Shown here: in pieces, positions 23,426 through 36,486 of the stretch
How positions within the stretch are numbered: the stretch's first letter is position 1
How the letters are laid out: the number at the start of each line of letters is the position of its first letter
Origin: Candidatus Vondammii sp. HM_W22
Lineage (GTDB): Bacteria > Pseudomonadota > Gammaproteobacteria > Chromatiales > Chromatiaceae
Direction: 5' to 3'
DNA length: 64,000 bases
Assembly (NCBI RefSeq): GCF_022530855.2
Contig: NZ_CP099567.1
Span: forward strand, 682,001 to 746,000
Translations under genes and position numbers: made by a program
Notes under the pieces: generated by a model
Told to the model about the DNA's origin: nothing
What the model saw: only the letters and a program-made list of their open reading frames with translations
The model's database searches: none

Positions 23426-24220
23426 TCAGGCCGATGAAGCCGTTTTACAAGCGAGATTCGAGAGTTTCACAAAATCTTCCAATGCCAGCCGCTCAGCACG
23501 GAGGCAGGGATCAATGCCTGCCTCTTCCATAAGGTGAGTGCCTGCCAATTCGCGGAGACTGTTGCGCAGGGTCTTGCGGCGCTGTGAGAAAGCGGCGGTG
23601 ATCATCCGGGCAAAAAAGACCTTGTCATCCACCGGGTAAAGCGGCGTCCGGTGCGGGACCAGGCGGACGAAAGATGAGTTCACCTTGGGTGCTGGCTTGA
23701 ATGCGCCGGGGCCGATATCAAACAGATGTTCAATTTTGCACAAAGCTTGGAGCATGACAGTAAGCCGGCCATAGATTTTACTCCCTGGCTCAGCCGCCAT
23801 ACGATCCACCACCTCCTTCTGAAGCATGAAGTGCATATCATGGACACAGTAGGAGTGTTCCAGCAGATGGAACAGGATGGGTGTCGATATGTTATAAGGT
23901 AGATTACCAATAAGCCTCAGTGGCTCATTTTCTGTGGCGAGGCTGCAGAAATCAAATTTCAGTGCATCGGTATTGACGATCTCCAGCTCACCCAAGTCAG
24001 CGCACATTTCGGCCAGTGGATGGACCAGGTCGCGATCCAACTCTATGGCGATCAGTTTCTTGTTAAGCGCCAAAAGCTCTTTAGTGATGGCGCCCCGACC
24101 GGGGCCGATTTCGACAAGATAGTCTGCTGGCTTTACAGCGATACTCCTTACGATTCTGCTGATGATGGAGGGGTCGTGGAGGAAGTTTTGGCCGAATCGT
24201 TTTCTAGCCTTGTGAGTCAA
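23426..24220 (-). CDS. rsmA: RsmA (KsgA), 16S rRNA dimethyladenosine transferase
   Basis: RsmA dimethylates two adjacent adenines (A1518 and A1519) in helix 45 of 16S rRNA. The 264-residue protein begins MTHKARKRFGQNFLHDPSII, has the SAM-binding motif LVEIGPGRGAITKELL, and the catalytic NLPYNISTPILFHLLE. FSQRRKTLRNSLREL is in the C-terminal domain. The sequence is normal throughout. Confidence 0.96.
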   Translation of the reverse strand: MTHKARKRFGQNFLHDPSIISRIVRSIAVKPADYLVEIGPGRGAITKELLALNKKLIAIELDRDLVHPLAEMCADLGELEIVNTDALKFDFCSLATENEPLRLIGNLPYNISTPILFHLLEHSYCVHDMHFMLQKEVVDRMAAEPGSKIYGRLTVMLQALCKIEHLFDIGPGAFKPAPKVNSSFVRLVPHRTPLYPVDDKVFFARMITAAFSQRRKTLRNSLRELAGTHLMEEAGIDPCLRAERLALEDFVKLSNLACKTASSA

Positions 24221-24357
24221 TGGATTATCCTTTCTTTTGTCGGAGACTTCAATTAGCTATAAAATTTATAAATTGAAATTACAAAAAAATCAACCAGTTA
24301 GGCTATAAATCGGGTGTGATTACAAGTCGCATTGATTTTCGCATTGGTGAAAAATGA

Positions 24358-25379
24358 GGCTCTTCCCCTAATTCAAGAGGGGAAGCATCATCCAACCACT
24401 CCCTCAGGATAAAGATTCAGCCCTCCAAGGTGGAGGTAGATTGCATTGGCAAATCGCTCTTTGTTGCGGAAACCGCTGCTAGGCACCTTGATCATCTTGA
24501 TTCGGCTGTTGAGACTTTCTGCCGGACCATTACTTACTTTCAAAACAACAGCGTTCAATATTCCCCACAGATGATCCTTGATTGTTCCCGCCACTTTCTT
24601 GATTGGCTCCAGGCCACTGCGCACTGCCCATGACAACCACCGCTCCTAGCCTTTCCTTGCCCATGTCTTGCTGGCATAGTGCCAGAGTGACATGGCAAAC
24701 TCTTTGATCCCCCAGGCGCGGGCAATCTTCAGCGTGCTGTCACGTAGCGCCTTGAACCGCAATTTCGGTCTGCGCATCATGTTCTCCGGGTTGTAGAGCT
24801 AGTCATACTGGCGGCCTTTAAGGTCCTCATAGCCATCAGCGCTTTGTGCTCTTGGCGGTGTACTTTGCCCACCGCCTCATCAATACCAATGCGTGTTGGG
24901 CTGATCTCTTTTCTACGTGCCAGTCCTCGCTTAACCGCTCGCTGCATAATTCCATCAATGGCATTCCAGCTCAGCCTCATCAATCGGGAGACTGCCGAGA
25001 TGGACGCCTCTTTCAACCAGTTGATCACCAGTGCCTCAAACATTGCAGTAAATCCATAGCACGGTTCCGCCCAGGAAACTGGCACGGTGCCCACCCCATG
25101 TTCTTCACACTTCACTCTGGGCGCATCTGCTACCAAAATAGTTTTGCACTGGCGGGTATCCAGGTGCCGCCAGCGGCGCTTGCGTGAGTCATAGCCCGGT
25201 GAGATATCTGCCCACAGGTTGAACAACACTGCTTGGCACCTGCCTCCTGCTCAACCTATACCGTTACCTCTCCCTCTGACAGAGCCAACTCTACACTGCC
25301 AAGGGCTCGTGATACTCAGGGTTTGGGCTATCTCTAGTAGGGGAGGCGTTAATCTACCCACTTAATCAGGGGAAGAGCC
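24358..25379 (-). mobile_element. ISL3-family element, copy 2, degenerate
   Basis: The ends are inverted repeats: GGCTCTTCCCCTAATTCAAG at 24358 and the complement of GGCTCTTCCCCTGATTAAG ending at 25379. The transposase is on the minus strand in broken frames. 25229-24777 covers the zinc-finger/helix-turn-helix and the first DDE part (ARVKCEEHGVGTVPVSWAEP; LKEASISAVSRLMRLSWNAI). 24636-24388 gives the C-terminus (IKDHLWGILNAV ... LGGLNLYPEGVVG). The middle is disrupted. At about 1.0 kb it is the longest of the three copies in the window but is not functional. Confidence 0.82.
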
Positions 25380-25434
25380 AATAATATAAAAAGGCCTGCA
25401 AAGAATAATTCCACGGGCTTTTAATCTACTAAAA

Positions 25435-25758
25435 TTAGTACCCGCCTTTACGCTTGGTCTCGGGCAGTCCGGCAATCTTGCCCGCTTGTTTGGCTGGGCC
25501 TGTTGGGAAAAGGTTGTAGAGTGATTTGGTGTCTACCTTATCCAGGTCAGTCCAGATTTTTTTAAAGTGTTTGACCATGTTGCGTTCATTGGGTTGGTTG
25601 CCATTATTGTTGAGGTACTCGTCGCGCAGATAGTTGATTATGTCCCAGCTCTTTTCACTCAGCTCGGCACCTTCTTTTTCGGCCAATTCTTTGGCTACGT
25701 GTTCATTCCAGTCTTCCAGATTTACCAGGTAACCATGGTTTGTTAATTCATATGACAT
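25435..25758 (-). CDS. rspA: RspA-type DsrC/TusE paralog without cysteines
   Basis: The product has 107 residues and the DsrC/TusE/RspA fold signature: GYLVNLEDWNEHVAKELAEK, ELSEKSWDIINYLRDEY, and LFPTGPAKQAGKIAGLPETK at the C-terminus. In DsrC the last block carries two conserved cysteines (here in dsrC at 31750). In this gene both are replaced and the protein contains no cysteine at all. That matches the class called RspA (regulatory sulfur-related protein), proposed to act without sulfur transfer. The ATG at 25758 is preferred over 25800 because GAAGGAGATATCACA precedes it. It is the last gene of a minus-strand group diverging from dsrA. Confidence 0.85.
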   Translation of the reverse strand: MSYELTNHGYLVNLEDWNEHVAKELAEKEGAELSEKSWDIINYLRDEYLNNNGNQPNERNMVKHFKKIWTDLDKVDTKSLYNLFPTGPAKQAGKIAGLPETKRKGGY

Positions 25759-25883
25759 TGTGATATCTCCTTCTCGGTAATTTATTTTTTTACTTAACAC
25801 TTAAATATGCTCGATAGCAAACATGCTAAATTGGGTTTAGGTAAATTGGAATGGCCTAGTGATAGTGAATTTTTTGCCGTGCC

Positions 25884-26543
25884 CTAAAAAGATTTTTGAG
25901 GAATAAACAGACCGCAGCCGAGAGTGCGTCGATTACCCAATCCCTGCTCTTGCAGATAAACGGCATTTTCATAAGAAAGGTTTGCCACCATCAGGCTTCG
26001 GGTCAGCAGTGGGCCACCGGGTGTAGCCAGCAGATTCTGTTTGCCACAGAGTATCTTTTTAAATCTCAATCTCATCTTTTTTAGTTCGGATATAGCCCAG
26101 GATAGGAATCTCTCTTCTTCCCAGTCGGGGTTGCAGGCAACATAACGCGAATAAAGGATATCGGTGACCCTGAGTTTCCTCTGCCTCGCAGTTTTGATTT
26201 CGATTGGGTGTCCATCGATATTGAGGGTCTGCCCGGACAGGGCAGCGGCATCTTCAATGCGGTGCTTTGGCAGCCTGAGAACGAGTGGGGTGCGCCTGGA
26301 TGGATAGAGCAACTCTTCTGCGCCTTGGGGGCGCTCCCAGCCATTGCCTGAATCTGCGACGTGGATGACGTGCAGGCCGGCCTGAGCTTCGTCGGAAAAC
26401 CAGGGCAGTAGCCGGTTGATCTCTTCGGCGAGCACCCAGGCATGATCCACCGGCAGGGCGGGGCAGTTTATCTGAAACAGCAGGTCAACCACGTTTTCAG
26501 GAACGACGAACTGCTCTCTGTTATTCTCTTCTTGCCAATACAT
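25884..26543 (-). CDS. Orphan Cas6/Cmx6-like protein (type I-MYXAN family)
   Basis: The 219-residue protein resembles the Cas6/Cmx6 endoribonuclease family of I-MYXAN CRISPR systems. The N-terminal ferredoxin-like half reads VVDLLFQINCPALPVDHAWV and LHVIHVADSGNGW. The centre has a PLVLRLPKHRIEDA strand. The C-terminus holds the glycine-rich RNA-binding loop QEQGLGNRRTLGCGLFIPQK and SLMVANLSYENAVYL. His in DHAW or HVIH could be catalytic. No CRISPR repeat or other cas gene is visible in 64 kb. It starts 3 bp after the preceding gene and ends 125 bp before rspA, so it belongs with sulfur genes rather than with immunity. The function here is unknown. Confidence 0.72.
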   Translation of the reverse strand: MYWQEENNREQFVVPENVVDLLFQINCPALPVDHAWVLAEEINRLLPWFSDEAQAGLHVIHVADSGNGWERPQGAEELLYPSRRTPLVLRLPKHRIEDAAALSGQTLNIDGHPIEIKTARQRKLRVTDILYSRYVACNPDWEEERFLSWAISELKKMRLRFKKILCGKQNLLATPGGPLLTRSLMVANLSYENAVYLQEQGLGNRRTLGCGLFIPQKSF

Positions 26544-26546
26544 AGT

Positions 26547-27308
26547 CTATTCTGGAATTTTACTTCGCAGTTGGTCTCGGTCGAACCACCAATCACCCCC
26601 TGTCAGGATATCCAGTACTGTGGCCAGGCGTGGCAGGAATTTGCCGGGATTGTCCAACTCCAGCTGCTGGACCCAAAAATCAAAAATTTCCTGGTCTTCC
26701 ACTTGGCTGTGGGTGCGGGCTACCTGGCCTAGTAATTGGATGGTAAAAAATTGCAGATTTTCCCTCTGCTTATCTTCTGCACGCATATCTGCAATATAGC
26801 CTGCAGTTGCGGCGGCCACGGCGGCACCGTCTGATCTGTCCTGACTCTCATCCACCATATGCTGGAGCATAGCAACGCTGAGCTCCGGATCGACGGGAAA
26901 GGTGACGCTCAGCCAGATACCGTGTGCCAGTGCCTTGATTGACTCTGGTTTTCCCGTTTGGAACATGATGTCGCAGGATTCCACCGCGTAGAGCCAGAGT
27001 TCTTCGGAAATTGCCTGATCAAAATGTGCGTGGGCTAGATCCCAAGCCTCGTCAAATCTGTTTAATTCCAGCAGAGCATAGCATTGCTGGAGAATCAGTG
27101 GCAGCTTGGTGTCCAGAGGGGCGCCGGTACCAATTTCATCCAGTTTTTTCCTGAGTTCATCCAGGCGAAGCTCAACCAGCTGACTTGACTGTATAGCATC
27201 GTCTGCACACTCGTTACCACCAAGGAATGTTTTTGATTGTAGATATTTCACGGTACTTCCCCCAGGAGCTTGTCCGATCTTAGGTTGAATCTGCTGCGGG
27301 AAAGACAC
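26547..27308 (-). CDS. Conserved helical protein upstream of the Cas6-like gene
   Basis: I do not recognise a named family. The roughly 250-residue product is acidic, soluble and nearly all helix-forming, with alternating hydrophobic/charged heptads that look TPR-like (LILQQCYALLELNRFDEAWD; LWLYAVESCDIMFQTGKPES). It has two Cys and no signal peptide. The GTG at 27308 gives the full frame. A GTG at 27251 with GGGGGAAG just upstream may be the true start. Its stop is 3 bp from the Cas6-like start, so the two are almost certainly one operon and may act together. Confidence 0.65.
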   Translation of the reverse strand: MSFPQQIQPKIGQAPGGSTVKYLQSKTFLGGNECADDAIQSSQLVELRLDELRKKLDEIGTGAPLDTKLPLILQQCYALLELNRFDEAWDLAHAHFDQAISEELWLYAVESCDIMFQTGKPESIKALAHGIWLSVTFPVDPELSVAMLQHMVDESQDRSDGAAVAAATAGYIADMRAEDKQRENLQFFTIQLLGQVARTHSQVEDQEIFDFWVQQLELDNPGKFLPRLATVLDILTGGDWWFDRDQLRSKIPE

Positions 27309-27436
27309 TTTGGCTAGATTTCCCGAGCAATTTCGTTAAAAATGATGATGGTTCGCTTTGAATTATGCGAAAAGCCCGGCCAAAATGGCTTTCCCTCGCT
27401 ACTGCGATCACCTCAGCTCCGCCGGCTCCAAAGTTT

Positions 27437-27613
27437 CTAGGTAAAGGCTGCTTCCAGCCTGTCTTCCCAATCTTCTGGGGTGTCGGAAAACTGGGGTTTT
27501 ACGTCAATGCGAAAGAACGTGGTTCCCTGGCGGCGTATTTTGATTAGTTCGATCAACTCCTCGAATGTTTCTACATCCGGGCTCTGGATCATTACCTCAC
27601 TTAGCAGGAGCAT
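27437..27613 (-). CDS. 58-residue hypothetical protein
   Basis: This short frame runs from the ATG at 27613 to a TAG at 27437. It reads MLLLSEVMIQSPDVETFEEL in its first part and continues RRQGTTFFRIDVKPQFSDTP to ...RLEAAFT. Composition looks like a real small protein: acidic helix, then a beta-like TTFFRIDV stretch. It lies between dsrA and the helical/Cas6-like genes on the same strand as the latter. There is no family I can name. Confidence 0.45.
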   Translation of the reverse strand: MLLLSEVMIQSPDVETFEELIELIKIRRQGTTFFRIDVKPQFSDTPEDWEDRLEAAFT

Positions 27614-28114
27614 GCTTGTCTACCCCGAGTTGCATGAATTTTTCTGGTGCGGGTGGTTCGATGTTGCCGATCCAATAATACCCAAGTGATCAACTTGGTT
27701 TTTATTATTTAACCCCAGAGTTCAGGTTTGATGCAAGTCTGGGATGGAAATATTTTTGATGCAGTGCAATATCCAGTTATGGCGATTTATTAGTTATGCA
27801 GGGATTAGCCGATTTTATGTTATTGATATCTAATGGTATTATATTTTAGTTTATTCGATTATTCATATATAACTGAATATAAACATATCCCATTGGAGAT
27901 ATGTTATTTTACCCCTATACCCCCCCATTAGCGGGATATTGTTGACACATAAGGGAACTCTAAAATGCTTTATGAAACTCTGGGACGAGTAATCCCTTAT
28001 CCTGAACGAAGAGGTTTGCAAATTCAGGGTTTGCGGCGCCCGGGCAGTTGGGTGGCCGCTTGTGACTATCAATTCATAACACCTAATGATAAAGACCAAT
28101 TGGGAGATTAACTG
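27614..28114 (+). promoter_or_regulatory. dsr operon upstream region
   Basis: About 500 bp without a convincing gene, AT-rich, between the divergent small ORF and dsrA. It holds a perfect 8-bp dyad (27882-27889 / 27898-27905, AACATATC and GATATGTT) with an 8-base spacer. A TTGACA box lies at 27942-27947; the best -10 candidates downstream are poorly spaced. A second short palindrome (GGGACGAGTAATCCC) is near 27983. GGGAGA precedes the dsrA ATG. The region must contain the main dsr promoter, and the dyad is a candidate operator. Confidence 0.5.
27882..27905. promoter_or_regulatory. Perfect dyad, candidate operator for dsr
   Basis: AACATATC and GATATGTT are exact complements separated by CCATTGGA. 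The dyad is 36 bp upstream of a TTGACA box and 210 bp upstream of dsrA. It lies in the divergent space shared by dsrA and the minus-strand rspA/Cas6-like group, so one factor could regulate both. Function is inferred from symmetry and position only. Confidence 0.4.
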
Positions 28115-29359
28115 ATGGCAAAACCGATGCACGATACCCCCATGCTTGACCAGTTGGAGAGCGGCCCTTGGCCGAGCTTCATTACCGGTATCAAGCGCCT
28201 GGCTGAAAACAATGACATGGCTGTTGATCTGCTGGGTCAGCTGGAAACCTCTTACCAGACCCGCAAGGGCTACTGGAAAGGCGGTACCGTCGGTGTCATC
28301 GGTTACGGTGGTGGTGTAATCCCCCGTTTTACCGAACTGAAGGATGATGAGGGCAACCCACTGTTTCCGGCTGCTGCCGAGATGCATACCATCCGCATCA
28401 TGCCGCCTCCAGGCCTGCACTATGATACCGGTACCCTGCGCAAATTCTGCGATATCTGGGAGAAATACGGTACCGGCCTGATCTGTGCCCACGGCCAGTC
28501 CGGCGATATCATGTTCCAGGGTTGCGACTCTGCCAATGTTCAGCCTTTCTTCGATGAAATCAACAAAATTGGCTTTGATATGGGCGGAGCCGGTCCGGCT
28601 GTCCGTACCGGTATGTCCTGTGTCGGCGCTGCCCGTTGCGAGCAATCCAACTTCGATGAGGGCCGCACCCTGCGGGCTCTGGTCAACAACGCTCTGGATG
28701 ATCTGCACCGTCCGGCACTGCCATACAAGATGAAGTACAAAGTTTCCGGCTGCGCCAACGACTGCATGAACGCCATCCACCGTTCCGACTTTGCCGTGAT
28801 CGGCACTTGGCGTGATGATATGAAGGTCGACCAGAAAGAGGTGAAGAAGTATGTCGCCGATATGGGCCGCAAGAAAATGGTCGATAACGTCATCACCCGT
28901 TGCCCGACCAAGGCGCTATCGCTGAATGATGACGACACGCTGGAAGTGGACAATAAAAACTGTGTCCGCTGCATGCACTGTATCAATGTGATGACCAAGG
29001 CACTCTCTCCGGGCGACGACAAAGGTGTCAGTATTCTGATCGGCGGCAAGCGCACCCTGAAGATTGGCGATCTGCTGGGCACCGTGATCGTTCCTTTCCA
29101 CAAGCTGGAGAGCGATGAAGATTTCGAATGGATTGAAGAGCTGGCTACCGAGGTACTGGACTTCTTCGCTGAGAATGCGCTGGAGCACGAGCGTACCGGG
29201 GAGATGATCGAGCGCATCGGCCTGCAGAACTTCCTCGAAGGTATCGGCGTGGAGATCGATCCGAACATGATATCCCAGCCTCGTACCAACCCTTATGTCC
29301 GTATGGATGAGTGGGATGAAGAGGTGGCCAAGTGGGAAGAGCGTAAAGCCGCTCAGTAA
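28115..29359 (+). CDS. dsrA: DsrA, reverse sulfite reductase alpha subunit
   Basis: DsrA forms the cytoplasmic A2B2 siroheme enzyme that oxidises sulfane sulfur to sulfite in sulfur oxidisers. The 414-residue protein has the siroheme-[4Fe-4S] ligands as C169VGAARC and C213ANDC, and a ferredoxin-like domain with C283VRCMHC. Substrate-binding basic residues lie around YKMKYKVSG. The start follows GGGAGA. It is the first gene of the operon. Presence of dsrL and dsrEFH shows the oxidative (reverse) type rather than the sulfate-reducer type. Confidence 0.97.
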   Translation: MAKPMHDTPMLDQLESGPWPSFITGIKRLAENNDMAVDLLGQLETSYQTRKGYWKGGTVGVIGYGGGVIPRFTELKDDEGNPLFPAAAEMHTIRIMPPPGLHYDTGTLRKFCDIWEKYGTGLICAHGQSGDIMFQGCDSANVQPFFDEINKIGFDMGGAGPAVRTGMSCVGAARCEQSNFDEGRTLRALVNNALDDLHRPALPYKMKYKVSGCANDCMNAIHRSDFAVIGTWRDDMKVDQKEVKKYVADMGRKKMVDNVITRCPTKALSLNDDDTLEVDNKNCVRCMHCINVMTKALSPGDDKGVSILIGGKRTLKIGDLLGTVIVPFHKLESDEDFEWIEELATEVLDFFAENALEHERTGEMIERIGLQNFLEGIGVEIDPNMISQPRTNPYVRMDEWDEEVAKWEERKAAQ

Positions 29360-29455
29360 CCTTTCTTAAGGTTATATACGCATATCTCCTGCCGGAACCC
29401 GGCGGGGGGGTGTGGAACAGAATTTTAGCATTCAATAGAGAATTTGGAGGTAAGC

Positions 29456-30529
29456 ATGGCTGAAGCACCTCGCATGCCCGACGAGATAGGTGTCAGGGAT
29501 ATTCAAGAGTTCCTGCATCCTGTGTTGAAAAAGAACTATGGCGATTGGAAATGGCATGATCGTCCACGCCCAGGTGTCCTGCACCACGTTGCCAATGGCG
29601 GCGACGAGGTTTGGACTGTTCGCGCCGGTACCGCACGGCAGATGGATCTTTTCACTATCCGTACCCTGATGGATATTGCCGATGACTTTGCAGAAGGCTA
29701 TGTCCGCTTCACTATCCGCTCAAACATCGAGTTCATGGTCAGTGAAGAGTCCAAGGTACAGCCGCTGATCGACGAGTTGACCAAGCATGGTTTCCCAATT
29801 GGTGGTACCGGTAACTCTGTATCAAACATATCCCACACTCAGGGCTGGTTACACTGTGATATCCCGGGTACTGATGCCTCTGGTGTTGTCAAGGCGCTGA
29901 TGGATGAGTTGATTCATGAGTTTACCCATGAAGAGATGCCGAACCGCGTTCGTCTTACCTCTTCCTGCTGTCAGATCAACTGCGGCGGCCAAGGTGATAT
30001 CGCGATCAATATCCAGCACACCAAGCCACCAAAGATTGACCATAATCAGGTTGGTAATGTCTGTGAGCGTCCTACAGTAGTAGCTCGCTGCCCGGTTGCG
30101 GCTATTCGCCCTGCGGTGGTCAACGGCAAGCCTTCCCTCGAAGTGGATGAGCGTAAATGCATCTGCTGTGGCGCATGTTTCCCGCCTTGTCCTCCGATGC
30201 AGATCAACGATCCAGAGCACTCAAAGTTTGCGATCTGGGTTGGTGGCAAGCACTCCAACGCCCGTTCCAAACCTGCTTTCCATAAGCTGGTTGCATCCGG
30301 TGTTCCAAACAATCCGCCGCGCTGGCCAGAGGTGTCTGTGATCGTTAAGCAGATTCTCTTCGCCTATAAGGAAGATGCCAAGGATTGGGAGCGTATCGGT
30401 GAGTGGGCTGACCGCATTGGCTGGCCGAGCTTCTTCGAGAAGACCGGACTGCCTTTCACCAAGTACCACATCGATAACTGGCGTGGTGGTCGCGCGAACC
30501 TGAATGCTTCCGCACACATCCGCTTCTGA
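29456..30529 (+). CDS. dsrB: DsrB, reverse sulfite reductase beta subunit
   Basis: DsrB is the second subunit of the siroheme sulfite reductase. The 357-residue product has the cluster motif SSCCQINCGGQGDIAIN, the preserved RCPVAAIRP segment, and a ferredoxin domain with CICCGACFPPCPPMQI. The true start is the ATG at 29456 (MAEAPRMPDE), which has a good GGAGG site; an upstream in-frame ATG at 29444 is inside the ribosome-binding site. It lies 96 bp after dsrA. Confidence 0.97.
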   Translation: MAEAPRMPDEIGVRDIQEFLHPVLKKNYGDWKWHDRPRPGVLHHVANGGDEVWTVRAGTARQMDLFTIRTLMDIADDFAEGYVRFTIRSNIEFMVSEESKVQPLIDELTKHGFPIGGTGNSVSNISHTQGWLHCDIPGTDASGVVKALMDELIHEFTHEEMPNRVRLTSSCCQINCGGQGDIAINIQHTKPPKIDHNQVGNVCERPTVVARCPVAAIRPAVVNGKPSLEVDERKCICCGACFPPCPPMQINDPEHSKFAIWVGGKHSNARSKPAFHKLVASGVPNNPPRWPEVSVIVKQILFAYKEDAKDWERIGEWADRIGWPSFFEKTGLPFTKYHIDNWRGGRANLNASAHIRF

Positions 30530-30560
30530 TTCAGTGGATCTATAACCTAAGGGATAGCAA

Positions 30561-30953
30561 ATGAAATTTGCGATTCAGATAAATGAAGGGCCGTATCAGC
30601 ATCAAGCGTCTGATTCTGCCTATATGTTCACCAAGGCCGCCTTGGAGAAGGGACATGAGATTTTTCGTATTTTTTTTTACCATGACGGTGTTGGCAACAG
30701 CACCCGCTTGACCACGCCGCCTCAGGATGATCGCAATATCGTTGAGCGCTGGGCAGAACTTGCCGAGAAGTACGAATTGGATATGGTCGTCTGTGTGGCT
30801 GCGGCACAGCGTCGTGGTGTGGTGGATGATGGCGAAGCCGAGCGTAACGGCAAAGATGCCACCAATATCCATCCCAGGTTCCGGATTTCCGGTCTGGGGC
30901 AGCTGGTTGAAGCCGCTGTCCAGTCCGACCGGCTAATGGTCTTTGGCGATTGA
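30561..30953 (+). CDS. dsrE: DsrE, sulfurtransferase subunit
   Basis: DsrE is the catalytic subunit of the DsrE2F2H2 hexamer, which passes sulfur to DsrC. The 130-residue protein has the DsrE/TusD fold: MKFAIQINEGPYQHQASDSA at the start, FRIFFYHDGVGN, and the active Cys in MVVCVAAAQRRGV. It lies just after dsrB and before dsrF. Length is as in other sulfur oxidisers. Confidence 0.95.
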   Translation: MKFAIQINEGPYQHQASDSAYMFTKAALEKGHEIFRIFFYHDGVGNSTRLTTPPQDDRNIVERWAELAEKYELDMVVCVAAAQRRGVVDDGEAERNGKDATNIHPRFRISGLGQLVEAAVQSDRLMVFGD

Positions 30954-30971
30954 GCGCAGGAGTATTGGATT

Positions 30972-31379
30972 ATGTCTGAAATTAAAAAGTTCCTGTACCT
31001 TAACCGTCGCGCTCCCTATGGCACTATCTACGCTTGGGAATCCCTTGAGGTGGTGCTGATTGGTGCTGCTTTCGACCAGGATGTCAGCCTCGCTTTCCTG
31101 GATGATGGCGTGTATCAGATCGTCAAAGGTCAGAATACGGCTGAAGTGGGGATGAAGAACTTCTCGCCTACTTATTCTGCACTGGGTGACTATGAAGTAA
31201 CCAAACTCTATGTGGAGAAGGAGTCTCTGGAAGAGCGTGGTCTCACTATCGATGATTTGATGCCTCTCAAGTGGGAGGATGAGGATGAGGATTGGGCCGA
31301 AAAGGATTCAATCCGCCTCGTCAGCCGTGCTGAGTTGGCTAAGATGATGCAAGACCAAGACGTTGTCTTTGGTTTCTGA
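30972..31379 (+). CDS. dsrF: DsrF, sulfurtransferase subunit
   Basis: DsrF is the TusC-like subunit of DsrEFH. The 135-residue protein reads FLYLNRRAPYGTIYAWESLE at the start and DQDVSLAFLDDGVYQIVKGQ in the centre, both family signatures. No cysteine is present, consistent with a structural rather than sulfur-carrying role. Confidence 0.95.
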   Translation: MSEIKKFLYLNRRAPYGTIYAWESLEVVLIGAAFDQDVSLAFLDDGVYQIVKGQNTAEVGMKNFSPTYSALGDYEVTKLYVEKESLEERGLTIDDLMPLKWEDEDEDWAEKDSIRLVSRAELAKMMQDQDVVFGF

Positions 31380-31395
31380 GGAGTAGGTTGCTGTC

Positions 31396-31701
31396 ATGAG
31401 TGAATTGCATACTGTAAATAAATCGCCTTTTGAGAAGAACTCCTTTGACAGCTGTCTTGGGCATGCGCTCGAAGGCAGTGCTGTTCTGCTGTTTGAGGAT
31501 GGTGTCTATGCTGTTATGAAAGGCACAGTTGTAGAAGAGAAAGTGAAATCTGCCCAGGGTGTGAAGTTTTATGCACTGGGACCTGATATGAAAGCCCGTG
31601 GCCTCCCAGAGGAGCGGTTAATTGATGGGGTGGAGGTCGTGGACTATGCCGGGTTTGTCGACCTTGCGGCAGAGTACGGCAAAGTGGTGCCCTGGGTCTG
31701 A
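31396..31701 (+). CDS. dsrH: DsrH, sulfurtransferase subunit
   Basis: DsrH is the TusB-like subunit of DsrEFH. The 101-residue product has SFDSCLGHALEGSAVLLFED with the conserved Cys, then GVYAVMKGTV. The C-terminus is DLAAEYGKVVPWV. It lies 16 bp after dsrF and 48 bp before dsrC. Confidence 0.94.
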   Translation: MSELHTVNKSPFEKNSFDSCLGHALEGSAVLLFEDGVYAVMKGTVVEEKVKSAQGVKFYALGPDMKARGLPEERLIDGVEVVDYAGFVDLAAEYGKVVPWV

Positions 31702-31749
31702 CCCTGATACACAATTTTTTATTCCCTGGATAATTTAGGAGACAATATT

Positions 31750-32082
31750 ATGTCTATTGAAGCAGACGGCAAGACTTTTGAGACTGATGAGGAAGGTTAT
31801 CTGGTTAACCTCAGTGAGTGGATTCCAACTATCGCTGATGTGATGGCCAAGGAAGACGATCTGGAGCTGACCGATGAGCATTGGGATATCATCACCTTCC
31901 TGCGTGAGTACTATGAAGAGTATCAGATTGCTCCTGCCGTACGCGTTCTGACCAAAGCTGTCGGCAAGAAACTGGGCAAAGAGAAAGGTAACAGCAAGTA
32001 CCTGTACGCGCTGTTTCCCTATGGTCCTGGCAAGCAGGCTTGCCGTTTTGCCGGGTTGCCTAAGCCTACTGGTTGTATCTAA
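31750..32082 (+). CDS. dsrC: DsrC, sulfur-carrier protein
   Basis: DsrC carries sulfur as a persulfide or trisulfide between DsrEFH, DsrAB and DsrK. The 110-residue protein ends PGKQACRFAGLPKPTGCI. The two cysteines, C98 and C109, are separated by 10 residues exactly as in DsrC proper. The N-terminal half (GYLVNLSEWIPTIADVMAKE) is the family helix-turn region. AGGAGAC precedes the start. It is a paralog of the cysteine-free rspA at 25435. Confidence 0.97.
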   Translation: MSIEADGKTFETDEEGYLVNLSEWIPTIADVMAKEDDLELTDEHWDIITFLREYYEEYQIAPAVRVLTKAVGKKLGKEKGNSKYLYALFPYGPGKQACRFAGLPKPTGCI

Positions 32083-32094
32083 GCCGATCTGAAT

Positions 32095-32131
32095 CACCCG
32101 GGAGGAGAATTTTCCTCCTCCCGGGTGTTTT
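32095..32131 (+). terminator. Strong hairpin between dsrC and dsrM
   Basis: CACCCGGGAGGAG pairs perfectly with CTCCTCCCGGGTG (13 bp, loop AATTTTC), followed by TTTT. This has the shape of an intrinsic terminator but with a short T-run, so it probably lets some transcripts through. It would leave more dsrABEFHC mRNA than dsrMKLJOP mRNA, or protect the 3' end of a processed dsrC message. Confidence 0.75.
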
Positions 32132-32154
32132 AAACCTTTGAGGATTGCAGGGAC

Positions 32155-32886
32155 ATGTCAACTGCTTACGCATTGCTGTTTATCGTGTCGGCCATAGTAC
32201 TTGTACTGGGCGTGGCGAGGAAAATGATTCAGTACGCGAGGATACCTGCTCCATTAAAAATTCCTACCACACCGGCGCCGGTTACCCGCTCCGGAGTGGT
32301 TCTTCGCATGTTCCGTGAAGTGGTGTTCTTCGAGAGCCTTTTCAAGGGAACCAAATGGACCTGGATCTTCTCCTGGATGTTCCATATGGGATTGCTCCTG
32401 GTTCTGCTGCGCCATATGCGCTATTTCATGGATCCTGTCTGGCTCCCTATAGAATTGATTCAGCCTTTCGGCGTTTATGCCGGATTTGCCATGGTGGCAG
32501 GCTTGGGCGGACTGTTCTTGCGACGCATCTTTGTTGATCGGGTGCGCTATATCTCTGCCCCATCAGACTACCTTTGGTTGATCTTGCTTGGTTTTATCGG
32601 TTTTAGTGGCTTGATGATGAAGTTCGTCGCCCATACCGATATTGTGATGGTCAAGCAGTATTTTACTGGTCTCCTCTCTTTCAGTATTGGAGCACTGCCA
32701 GTTGATTTCCCACTTATCGTACACCTGGTGCTGGTTGCGATTCTTATGCTTCTTTTCCCTTTCAGCAAACTGCTTCATGCGCCGGGCATATTCTTTAGCC
32801 CGAGTCGTAATCAGGTGGATAACCCACGTGAGAAGCGGCATATCGCCCCTTGGGCGAAGGCGCTGGAAGAGAAAGAACAAGGTTAA
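32155..32886 (+). CDS. dsrM: DsrM, membrane cytochrome b of DsrMKJOP
   Basis: DsrM is a NarI-like diheme cytochrome b subunit of the DsrMKJOP transmembrane complex. The 243-residue protein has about five hydrophobic segments: LLFIVSAIVLVLGVARKM at the start, then WIFSWMFHMGLLLVLLRHMR, LGGLFLRRIF, YLWLILLGFIGFSGLMMKF, and LVLVAILMLLFPFSKLLHAP. Conserved His residues are in FHMG, LRHM and LLHAP. It starts after the hairpin and 24 bp before dsrK. Confidence 0.95.
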   Translation: MSTAYALLFIVSAIVLVLGVARKMIQYARIPAPLKIPTTPAPVTRSGVVLRMFREVVFFESLFKGTKWTWIFSWMFHMGLLLVLLRHMRYFMDPVWLPIELIQPFGVYAGFAMVAGLGGLFLRRIFVDRVRYISAPSDYLWLILLGFIGFSGLMMKFVAHTDIVMVKQYFTGLLSFSIGALPVDFPLIVHLVLVAILMLLFPFSKLLHAPGIFFSPSRNQVDNPREKRHIAPWAKALEEKEQG

Positions 32887-32910
32887 CCTGGGCCGCGAAG
32901 AGGGCATTAC

Positions 32911-34446
32911 ATGGCTAAGGCAAAATTCGAAACCCCGGAACTCCATGAATATGTGGATGTACCGGAAGTCGTTGAAGGCACAATGGCAGGGCTTAAGGCA
33001 TTTATTGCCAAGCCTGATCACAATACCGATTTGGGTTTTCCCGCTGAGCTGGTAGATGATTGGCACGCCAAAACACTGGAAAAGCTGGACGATCTGCGCT
33101 CACGTTATCGGTCACTCCAGGTCTATCTTGATATCTGCGTCAAGTGTGGTGCCTGCACTGATAAGTGCCACTACTTTCTTGGTACCAAAGACCCGAAAAA
33201 CATGCCGGTGGGCCGTCAGGATCTGCTGCGCAAGGTCTATCGCCGCTACTTCACCTTTGCGGGTAAATATTTCCCGAAACTGGTGGGTGCAACGGATCTG
33301 ACCCGGGAGACCCTGGATGAGTGGTACAGCTACTACCATCAATGCTCCCAGTGCCGCCGTTGTTCAGTCTTCTGTCCCTTCGGTATCGATACCGCAGAGA
33401 TCTCCATGGCTGCACGCGAGATTCTTGACAGCATCGGATACGGCCAGAAGTACTGTAATGAAATCATCGCCAAGGTGCATAAGATAGGCAACAATCTTGG
33501 ATTACCCGGACCGGCCATTGAAAATACTCTGGAGGGGCTGGAAGAGGATATTGAGGAAGAGACCGGGATTGTCGTCAAACTCCCGTTGGATGTGAAGGGT
33601 GCCGATATTCTTCTGGTAACGCCTTCTGCCGACTTCTTTGCCGAACCCCACGTGGACGGTCTCATCGGCTACGCAAAAGTATTCCATGAGTCCGGTATTA
33701 GCTGGACCATGAGTACCACCGCTTCAGAAGCGGGTAATTTCGGCATGTTCATCGGTAGCTACGAGAATATGCGCCGGGTTTCCATGCGAATCCGCCAGGC
33801 GGCGCTGGAGCTGGGTGTCAAGCGTATCGTCTTCGGTGAGTGCGGCCATGCATGGCGCATTGCCTACTCCTTCCTGAATACTCTGGCTGGTCCTTTTGAA
33901 TTTCTGGATCCGGATTATCCGGTACCCCAGCATATCTGCGAGTTCACCCATGATCTGATTGAGCGGGGAAAACTGAATCTGGACAAGTCTCGCAATGATC
34001 ACATGACGCTCACCTACCACGACTCTTGTAACGTAGCCCGGGCCAGTCGTATGGGAGACAAGCCCGGTGGTCAGTTTGAGATACCCCGCGCGATTATCAA
34101 GGCAGTCTGCAACAACTTTGTGGATATGAAGCATGACACTATCGAAGAACGCACATACTGCTGTGGTGGTGGTGGTGGTCTGCTCACAGATGATCTGATG
34201 GAGATCCGAGTCAAGGGTGCCATGCCCCGCATGACGGAACTGAAAAACGTTATTGAGCAGGAAGGGGTCACCCACATGGCGGCGATCTGCGCTATCTGCA
34301 AGAGTCAGTTTACTAAGGTTTTGCCCTATTTCGGCATGGATATGGACCAGATAGTCTGTGTTCACCAGTTATTAAGTAATGCCATCATTCTGACCGGACA
34401 GAAAATGGACGGGGATGATGAAGAGGGTGCCGAAGAAGAAGCGTGA
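32911..34446 (+). CDS. dsrK: DsrK, HdrD-like iron-sulfur protein
   Basis: DsrK is the cytoplasmic catalytic subunit of DsrMKJOP and is thought to oxidise or reduce the DsrC C-terminal thiols. The 511-residue product has two [4Fe-4S] motifs, C76VKCGACTDKC and CSQCRRCSVFCPF. A C-terminal CCG domain includes YCCGGGGGLLTDDL (C417-C418), which binds the noncubane cluster in HdrB/HdrD relatives. It has no membrane segment and would bind via DsrM. Confidence 0.96.
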   Translation: MAKAKFETPELHEYVDVPEVVEGTMAGLKAFIAKPDHNTDLGFPAELVDDWHAKTLEKLDDLRSRYRSLQVYLDICVKCGACTDKCHYFLGTKDPKNMPVGRQDLLRKVYRRYFTFAGKYFPKLVGATDLTRETLDEWYSYYHQCSQCRRCSVFCPFGIDTAEISMAAREILDSIGYGQKYCNEIIAKVHKIGNNLGLPGPAIENTLEGLEEDIEEETGIVVKLPLDVKGADILLVTPSADFFAEPHVDGLIGYAKVFHESGISWTMSTTASEAGNFGMFIGSYENMRRVSMRIRQAALELGVKRIVFGECGHAWRIAYSFLNTLAGPFEFLDPDYPVPQHICEFTHDLIERGKLNLDKSRNDHMTLTYHDSCNVARASRMGDKPGGQFEIPRAIIKAVCNNFVDMKHDTIEERTYCCGGGGGLLTDDLMEIRVKGAMPRMTELKNVIEQEGVTHMAAICAICKSQFTKVLPYFGMDMDQIVCVHQLLSNAIILTGQKMDGDDEEGAEEEA

Positions 34447-34539
34447 CGGAGCGGCTTGAGTGAAATCGTGCCGTTGACTGCAGTAGTGGGTCGACGGAGT
34501 TTTAAGAATTTTATATTTAGGCTTAATGGAGACTAGAGT

Positions 34540-36486
34540 ATGGCGACTCCTACTGATGAGATGAAAAGTACCTTAAACTACCGTCGATACGATGAAGGCG
34601 ACGGCCAGTGGGATGACTTCAGCGAATTAATTTTCGTTCAGGACACCTCTCACAAGTGCCCTACCTACATCCATAAAACACCACCCTGTCAGGGTAGTTG
34701 TCCATCGGGTGAAGATATTCGCGGCTATCTGGCAATTGCCCGTGGCCAGGAGAAACCGCCAGAGGGTGTGGCGTGGGAAGAGTACGCTTTCCAGCGTTCA
34801 ACCGATGCAAACCCTTTCCCCTCGATGATGGGTCGCGTTTGTCCGGCACCTTGCCAGGATGGTTGTAACCGCAACGATGTGGAAGATTTCGTTGGTATCA
34901 ACTCAGTGGAGCAGTACATTGGCGACACCGCACTGGCCAATGGCTACAAATTCGAGGCTGAGGCAGATACTGGCAAGAAGGTCGCCATTGTCGGTGGTGG
35001 TCCTGCCGGTATGGCAGCCGCTTATCAGCTGCGTCGCATGGGCCATGCTGCTACGGTTTTTGAAAAAGACCCTCACCTGGGCGGCATGATGCGCTACGGC
35101 ATCCCCAACTATCGTATACCACGCGACAAACTGGCGGCAGAAATGCAGCGCATTGTTGACATGGGTGTTGAGGTTTGCACCGGTGTTCGCGTCGGCCAAG
35201 ATGTTCCTGTTGCCGATCTGGAAAAAGAGTACGATGCGATACTCTGGGCTCTGGGTTGTCAGAACGGACGTGGGCTTCCCATCGATGGTTGGGAAGGCAC
35301 TTCAAACTGTATCTCCGGTGTCGCCTTTCTTAAAGCCTTCAATGAAGGCCGGATGAAGGTGACCGGTAAAAAGATCATCTGTATCGGCGGTGGTGATACC
35401 TCTATCGATGTGATCTCCGTTACCCGGCGCCTTGGTTATAATGCTGCTGCCGGCAATCCTGAAGATGTTGTTGCCGACTTTAGCATCAACCACGATCAGG
35501 CGCTGGCGGATGCTGCTGAGCCAGCCGAGGCAACACTGACCTCACTGTTCACCAAAGACAAGATGTTTGCTGCAGAACATGAGATCCATGATGCTCTGCA
35601 CGAAGGTTGTGTCATCCTCGATGGTGTGATGCCGCTGGAAGTTATCCTTGGTGAAGATGGCCGTGCAACCGGCCTGAAAGTGTGTGATTGTACCATGGAC
35701 GGAATGAAGCCGATTCCGACCGAAGGCACTGAGCGTGTTCTTGAGGTGGATCTGATTGTGTCTGCGATTGGCCAGGGTGGTGATATGGAAGGCCTGGAAG
35801 ATATGGCCAATGATCGTAACCTGATCGATGCTGACAAATTCTATCAGGTACCCAGCAAGCCGGGCCATTTCGTCGCTGGCGATATTATCCGCCCACACCT
35901 GTTGACCACGGCAATCGGCCAGGCCTCTGTCGCGGTCGAGAGCATCGATCACTATATGAAGAGCGAAGAGCAGGCGAAACGGCCTAAAGTTGATGTTCAT
36001 CACTTTGACCTGATGAATAAGCTGCACGAAGCTGGGCTGGACCCAGAGCAGTTTGATTCTCATGATGGCGATCTTCGTGGTACTGCAAGCGCCAATTTTG
36101 CGGTGCACAATTTTGAAGATCGTTCAGCACAGGAGGTGGTTGGTTCCAGTGATCTGTTCCTTGGGCACTTCAGCTTCACTCCCCGGGTACTGCGGGGTGA
36201 AGATGTTCCCAGCGCAGATGATGTGCTCGGTCACTTCAATGAGCGTCTTATTTTGCTGAGCGAAGAGCAGGTGCAGGCTGAAGCCAAGCGTTGCATGAGT
36301 TGCGGCATGTGCTTTGAGTGTGACAACTGCGTTATTTTCTGCCCCCAGGATGCGGTGTTCAGGGTGAGAAAAGATGAGTCTACGACTGGCCGTTATGTCA
36401 ATACGGATTACAACAAATGTATCGGTTGCCATATCTGTAGCGACGTCTGCCCAACGGGTTATATTCAGATGGGTCTTGGTGAATAG
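34540..36486 (+). CDS. dsrL: DsrL, NAD(P)H-linked iron-sulfur flavoprotein
   Basis: DsrL is an iron-sulfur flavoprotein related to the small subunit of glutamate synthase. It carries electrons between DsrAB/DsrC and NAD(P)+ and is essential for sulfur oxidation. The 648-residue protein has an N-terminal cysteine cluster (HKTPPCQGSCPSGEDIRGYL), an FAD Rossmann motif (VAIVGGGPAGMAAAYQLRRM), an NAD(P)H motif (IICIGGGDTSIDVIS), and two C-terminal ferredoxin motifs (CMSCGMCFECDNCVIFCPQ; CIGCHICSDVCPTGYI). The order dsrK-dsrL-dsrJ is that of purple sulfur bacteria. Confidence 0.95.
   Translation: MATPTDEMKSTLNYRRYDEGDGQWDDFSELIFVQDTSHKCPTYIHKTPPCQGSCPSGEDIRGYLAIARGQEKPPEGVAWEEYAFQRSTDANPFPSMMGRVCPAPCQDGCNRNDVEDFVGINSVEQYIGDTALANGYKFEAEADTGKKVAIVGGGPAGMAAAYQLRRMGHAATVFEKDPHLGGMMRYGIPNYRIPRDKLAAEMQRIVDMGVEVCTGVRVGQDVPVADLEKEYDAILWALGCQNGRGLPIDGWEGTSNCISGVAFLKAFNEGRMKVTGKKIICIGGGDTSIDVISVTRRLGYNAAAGNPEDVVADFSINHDQALADAAEPAEATLTSLFTKDKMFAAEHEIHDALHEGCVILDGVMPLEVILGEDGRATGLKVCDCTMDGMKPIPTEGTERVLEVDLIVSAIGQGGDMEGLEDMANDRNLIDADKFYQVPSKPGHFVAGDIIRPHLLTTAIGQASVAVESIDHYMKSEEQAKRPKVDVHHFDLMNKLHEAGLDPEQFDSHDGDLRGTASANFAVHNFEDRSAQEVVGSSDLFLGHFSFTPRVLRGEDVPSADDVLGHFNERLILLSEEQVQAEAKRCMSCGMCFECDNCVIFCPQDAVFRVRKDESTTGRYVNTDYNKCIGCHICSDVCPTGYIQMGLGE

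Follow-up and report, generated by a model that had tools for sequence, protein, structure and literature searches.

Cmx6, a stand-alone protein encoded beside the dsr genes of sulfur-oxidising Gammaproteobacteria, belongs to the Cas6/Cmx6 family, has the Cas6 fold, retains the histidine and the glycine-rich loop, is under constraint, is linked to dsr and is independent of CRISPR. It is probably a Cas6 that has been domesticated to bind or cut RNA without a guide, serving as a fixed accessory of gammaproteobacterial reverse-Dsr sulfur oxidation.

The window analysed is a stretch of 64,000 nucleotides from the genome of Candidatus Vondammii sp. HM_W22, and window positions are used throughout. 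ORF calling places four minus-strand genes, orf58, hel, cmx6 and rspA, facing dsrA, with exactly 3 bp between hel and cmx6, matching the arrangement reported in a preliminary description of this DNA. The features are as follows.

28115 to 29359, plus strand: dsrA, which opens the dsrABEFHCMK operon and runs divergently from the cmx6 genes (TIGR02064, 550 bits)
25884 to 26543, minus strand: cmx6, stand-alone Cas6/Cmx6-family protein of 219 aa (PF09559, TIGR02807)
25435 to 25758, minus strand: rspA, cysteine-less DsrC/TusE-family protein (PF04358)
26547 to 27251, minus strand: hel, TPR-like all-helical protein
27437 to 27613, minus strand: orf58, conserved 58-aa protein (ML.LSE...DVKPPF.DTPE.WEDRLEAAF) that matches no known family
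27889 to 27985, no strand assigned: conserved element ahead of dsrA, with TATCC...GGATA inverted repeats in a pair and a CTAAAAT box, from a 15-locus alignment
32093 to 32128, plus strand: hairpin in the dsrC-dsrM gap, the candidate target of the preliminary description, not specific to cmx6 genomes

The start of rspA was set by alignment at the ATG at 25758 (MSYE...), the ORF itself extending to 25800, and that of hel is probably the GTG at 27251 (VKYL...), likewise from alignment, in an ORF open to 27308. Just downstream of rspA, positions 24388-25229 contain the broken-frame remnant of a transposase-like gene, recognised by eye from the translations. A phage origin was rejected, with no match in the phage collection.

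Family, fold and conserved residues of Cmx6

The cmx6 product is a true Cas6/Cmx6-family protein, matching PF09559 with an E-value of 3.4e-57 and 194 bits (cut-off 26.7) and TIGR02807 with 110.8 bits, above the curated cut-off of 98.85. The AlphaFold2 model, built from an alignment with 67 relatives, reaches a pLDDT of 91.5 and displays the double-RRM fold of Cas6. Structure comparison using Foldseek and VIA-align places it closest to 8fcj_B, a Cas6 from a CRISPR transposon of type I-B (Z 24.8, with 198 residues superposed at an rmsd of 2.0), followed by the Cas6 structure 5yi6_A (Z 16.3), 3ufc from P. furiosus (Z 15.4) and then Cas6e proteins. These results bear out the Cas6/Cmx6-like identity first assigned from the translation, and the modelling check proposed at that stage finds both the fold and the probable catalytic histidine preserved.

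Of the 118 dsr-linked proteins, 117 conserve histidine 34, which lies where the first helix begins, as do all seven cyanobacterial plasmid relatives reaching that position; cas3 or cas8-type genes adjoin cas6 in six of these seven plasmid loci, the Gloeobacter locus being without them. The CAST Cas6 8fcj has an asparagine at the matching position. Analogy to other Cas6 proteins makes H34 the probable catalytic histidine of Cmx6. In the glycine-rich loop (residues 201-211), G201, G203, G209 and G211 are kept in 115 to 118 of the 118 dsr-linked proteins. Family, full fold and glycine-rich loop are thus shared with the Cas6/Cmx6 proteins of type I-MYXAN and type I-B CRISPR/CAST systems (8fcj_B), and the histidine at the first-helix start with the CRISPR-linked plasmid relatives. 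The dsr-linked proteins nevertheless differ from CRISPR Cas6/Cmx6 in showing only 21-28% identity to them, in a signature of their own, comprising NGWxRP (67-72), H58, E143, K163 and G167, and in being fixed beside dsr with no array or other cas genes found. A branch with support of 100/99 separates the cyanobacterial proteins from the rest of the family tree. Divergence of cmx6 correlates with that of dsrA (r 0.52, Mantel 0/1000), a correlation partly due to common ancestry.

Linkage to dsr and neighbouring genes

The main sample comprised 276 gammaproteobacterial genomes with completeness of at least 90%. PF09559 is present in 92 of them, in single copy save for one split gene, and dsrA in 91 (89 over the cut-off and two split genes). 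Both genes occur together in 88 genomes, cmx6 alone in 4, dsrA alone in 3 and neither in 181 (phi 0.94, p 6e-63). In at least six of the seven discordant genomes, the gene that is present lies at a contig end. The dsrA-only genomes G129, G141 and G219 were rejected as real losses of cmx6, each having a contig edge close to dsrA, with G141 still carrying orf58, tauD and an end fragment of hel on the same contig; the cmx6-only genomes G094, G115 and G145 were similarly rejected as real losses of dsrA because of contig ends, the seventh discordant genome being G297. Absence of the cluster from other dsr-bearing genomes had been named as grounds for abandoning the initial proposal; instead, cmx6 is near-universal in dsr-bearing Gammaproteobacteria, being present in almost all of them, and small genomes of 1.0-1.1 Mb retain it divergent from dsrA.

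In a second sample, comprising 249 genomes, PF09559 was present in all four dsrA-positive Gammaproteobacteria and in no dsrA-negative genome. Among 32 dsrA-positive genomes outside Gammaproteobacteria, PF09559 was found in none, and five of these carry an oxidative-type dsrABEFHCMK operon. The distribution in both samples indicates an association that is class-wide, yet not needed by every reverse-Dsr system. Since alphaproteobacteria-like oxidative dsr operons work without cmx6, Cmx6 is not indispensable to rDsr chemistry.

Every one of the 87 non-redundant loci with the pair has cmx6 divergent from dsrA, an arrangement far beyond chance. On the cmx6 strand, rspA lies beside cmx6 in 81 loci, accompanied by orf58 in 78, a TauD-like dioxygenase gene in 57, hel in 50 and the gene for a 67-aa protein in 31. 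The co-occurrence check suggested in the preliminary description therefore divides: Cmx6 accompanies dsr and rspA independently of CRISPR, whereas hel, offered there as the partner of Cmx6, is not supported as an essential one, RspA and orf58 being far more constant. The 67-aa protein (e.g. L104:706-909) is conserved, belongs to no known family and has its gene after rspA in about one third of the loci.

The rspA product matches PF04358 (DsrC) with an E-value of 9.5e-32 and contains zero cysteines, its tail GLPETKRKGGY standing where DsrC has its cysteine tail. All 72 relatives checked end in RKGGY, and none has a cysteine among the last 15 residues, identifying RspA as a DsrC paralog without C-terminal cysteines, as had been claimed; the name, taken from the earlier description, presumably applies. 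Membership of the DsrC family, lack of cysteines and dsr linkage are shared with known RspA proteins, to which the present ones add the invariant RKGGY tail and the adjacent cmx6. Locus L109 carries an additional DsrC-like gene (L109:260-589), a few hundred bases past rspA.

The AlphaFold2 model of the hel product (pLDDT 86) is all-helical and TPR-like. The protein has no Pfam match and its model no confident PDB match, the top rows being TPR proteins; the best VIA Z of 13.8, among TPR and helical repeats, falls inside the background for helical models. The orf58 gene occurs too in alphaproteobacteria-like dsr loci without cmx6: four of five have tauD-orf58-DUF6967 and none of the five has cmx6. 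This gene set is divergent from dsrA at L163:2863-4516, L164:2881-4325 and L165:3247-3676, and is followed by the siroheme synthase gene cysG in L163 and L164, the two loci read fully. DUF6967 also adjoins cmx6 in L081-L083, L025 and L152, with orf58 missing from L081-L083.

In PMC7596348, a TauD-like gene upstream of dsr is named dsrQ (citing Lenk et al. 2012), and in many of the present loci the divergent gene adjoining dsrA is this TauD-like dsrQ. The passages on DsrQ in that paper make no mention of cmx6, orf58 or rspA, which come after the TauD-like gene. The HM_W22 window cluster has no dsrQ.

Possible action of Cmx6 on RNA

In the proposed mechanism, a Cas6/Cmx6 RNA endonuclease would have left CRISPR and become a fixed accessory gene of the gammaproteobacterial reverse-Dsr system. 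Cmx6 would be made, together with RspA and Orf58, from the operon divergent from dsrA, which in many lineages would also yield the TPR-like protein or the TauD-like DsrQ. Needing no guide, the protein would bind, and probably cleave, one particular cellular RNA and in this way most likely tune dsr expression or transcript stability, and RspA would signal the condition of the DsrC/DsrEFH sulfur relay. These steps carry different weight. Cmx6 very likely binds RNA, and there is a good probability that it has the putative cleaving activity. Action on dsr or neighbouring transcripts is possible but doubtful, and control of that action by RspA is somewhat unlikely. The more specific reading, in which a guide-free Cas6 endoribonuclease, domesticated at an early stage of reverse-Dsr evolution in Gammaproteobacteria, couples the RspA-sensed sulfur relay to RNA processing as post-transcriptional control, is plausible, falling a little short of even confidence. 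If it holds, the RspA-coupled Cas6 would represent a new kind of post-transcriptional control over a lithotrophic energy pathway.

Alternatively, Cmx6 may have kept the Cas6 fold as a subunit that binds RNA or protein but does not cleave, such as a scaffold complexed with RspA and DsrAB/DsrEFH. Such a role would suit the location of the NGWxRP loop, E143, K163 and G167, where dsr-specific conservation is strongest, outside the presumed catalytic histidine, the standing of RspA as the most constant neighbour, and the lack of a conserved RNA target among the hairpins and dsrA leader examined. It is nonetheless unlikely, as a dead enzyme needs no H34, a residue conserved as strongly as any and common to CRISPR-linked relatives, and the conserved arginines and the glycine-rich loop suit RNA binding.

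For a Cmx6 that acts on RNA, the hairpin at 32095 had been put forward as a target. The dsrA-dsrB and dsrC-dsrM gaps (29360-29443 and 32083-32154 in the window) are more structured than shuffled sequence, unlike the remaining dsr gaps; hairpins at or below -12 kcal occur in 51 of 99 dsrA-dsrB gaps and 75 of 90 dsrC-dsrM gaps. Most of them lack a U tail, which makes a plain terminator role unlikely. Cleavage or protection of dsr mRNA by Cmx6 at the dsrA and dsrC hairpins, so that the dsrC segment would outnumber the segment downstream of it, could draw on these counts but is very unlikely. The same hairpins occur in cmx6-less loci (6/15 for dsrA-dsrB and 7/8 for dsrC-dsrM where the DNA was examined), and they are absent or weak in the symbiont loci L113, L115 and L145, where cmx6 is retained. 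The hairpins of the two gaps share no motif, their likeness within genomes not exceeding that between genomes (p 0.11). On these three grounds, the 32095 hairpin is unsupported as a Cmx6 target.

No general RNA structure was found in the dsrA leader or in the gaps of the cmx6 operon. The element at 27889-27985 is a probable dsr operator or promoter. Its CTAAAAT box lies about 140 nt ahead of the dsrA start codon, and the element is common to Sedimenticola-like loci and recognisable in the small-genome locus L113.

Independence from CRISPR

Cas6 is an RNA-cutting protein of CRISPR systems. The HM_W22 genome, a single contig of 3.35 Mb, contains one PF09559 gene. Profile searches of this complete genome gave no Cas1, and matches to Cas3 and Cas10 only far below cut-off; the weak Cas3 matches are probably ordinary helicases, because the Cas3 profile responds in 14 of 14 control genomes, below or above cut-off. 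Positions 24000-36000 of the window hold no CRISPR-like direct repeats and the window has no Rfam match, in keeping with the earlier observation that the window contains no CRISPR repeat. By the repeat search around the operon, the Rfam search of the window and the genome profiles for Cas1, Cas3 and Cas10, the locus is not a type I-MYXAN CRISPR-Cas system (array with cas1/cas3/cas8), and the matching cas genes that might have lain elsewhere in the genome, which the preliminary description had set against its own proposal, were not found above cut-off by these profiles.

Across the 276 genomes, Cas1 occurs in 111 and is scarcely associated with cmx6 (phi 0.08, against 0.94 for dsrA), being found in 42 of the 92 cmx6 genomes and missing from 47 of the 88 with both dsr and cmx6. 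Recruitment of a Cas6 protein to the dsr locus apart from CRISPR, the central claim made at the outset, is upheld by this comparison. That Cmx6 serves a CRISPR elsewhere in the genome by processing its RNA in trans, the dsr neighbourhood being accidental, is hardly credible and was rejected on these co-occurrence counts and the HM_W22 profile results, although the family is named after CRISPR proteins, which also include its closest solved relatives, and Cas1 is present in part of the cmx6 genomes.

A CRISPR-independent Cas6 back to back with dsr suggests the permanent reuse of a CRISPR enzyme in energy metabolism, where it would probably act on RNA. If the domesticated, guide-free Cas6 reading is true, lithotrophic sulfur oxidation has kept a CRISPR enzyme in its service in dozens of bacterial families, even in genomes of about 1 Mb. 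This would point to an RNA-level layer, so far overlooked, in a pathway behind much of the sulfur cycling in the sea and in sediments. Where sulfur oxidisers carry a stand-alone gene annotated as "CRISPR-associated Cas6/Cmx6", it is probably unrelated to defence.

In DevTRS of Myxococcus xanthus, Cas proteins are tied to a cellular programme and not to defence, with the cas operon beside CRISPR arrays. Dsr-linked Cmx6 resembles DevTRS in being tied to a cellular programme but comprises one Cas6 only, without arrays. A literature search with sparse coverage of subscription journals returned no paper linking Cas6 with dsr, and within that coverage we could find no described counterpart of the system that this new member of a known family makes up with dsr. 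Another Cmx6 away from CRISPR is encoded on the Gloeobacter plasmid (L178:3971-4762), where the Cas6/Cmx6 gene lies amid non-cas genes that include a PAPS-reductase-family gene.
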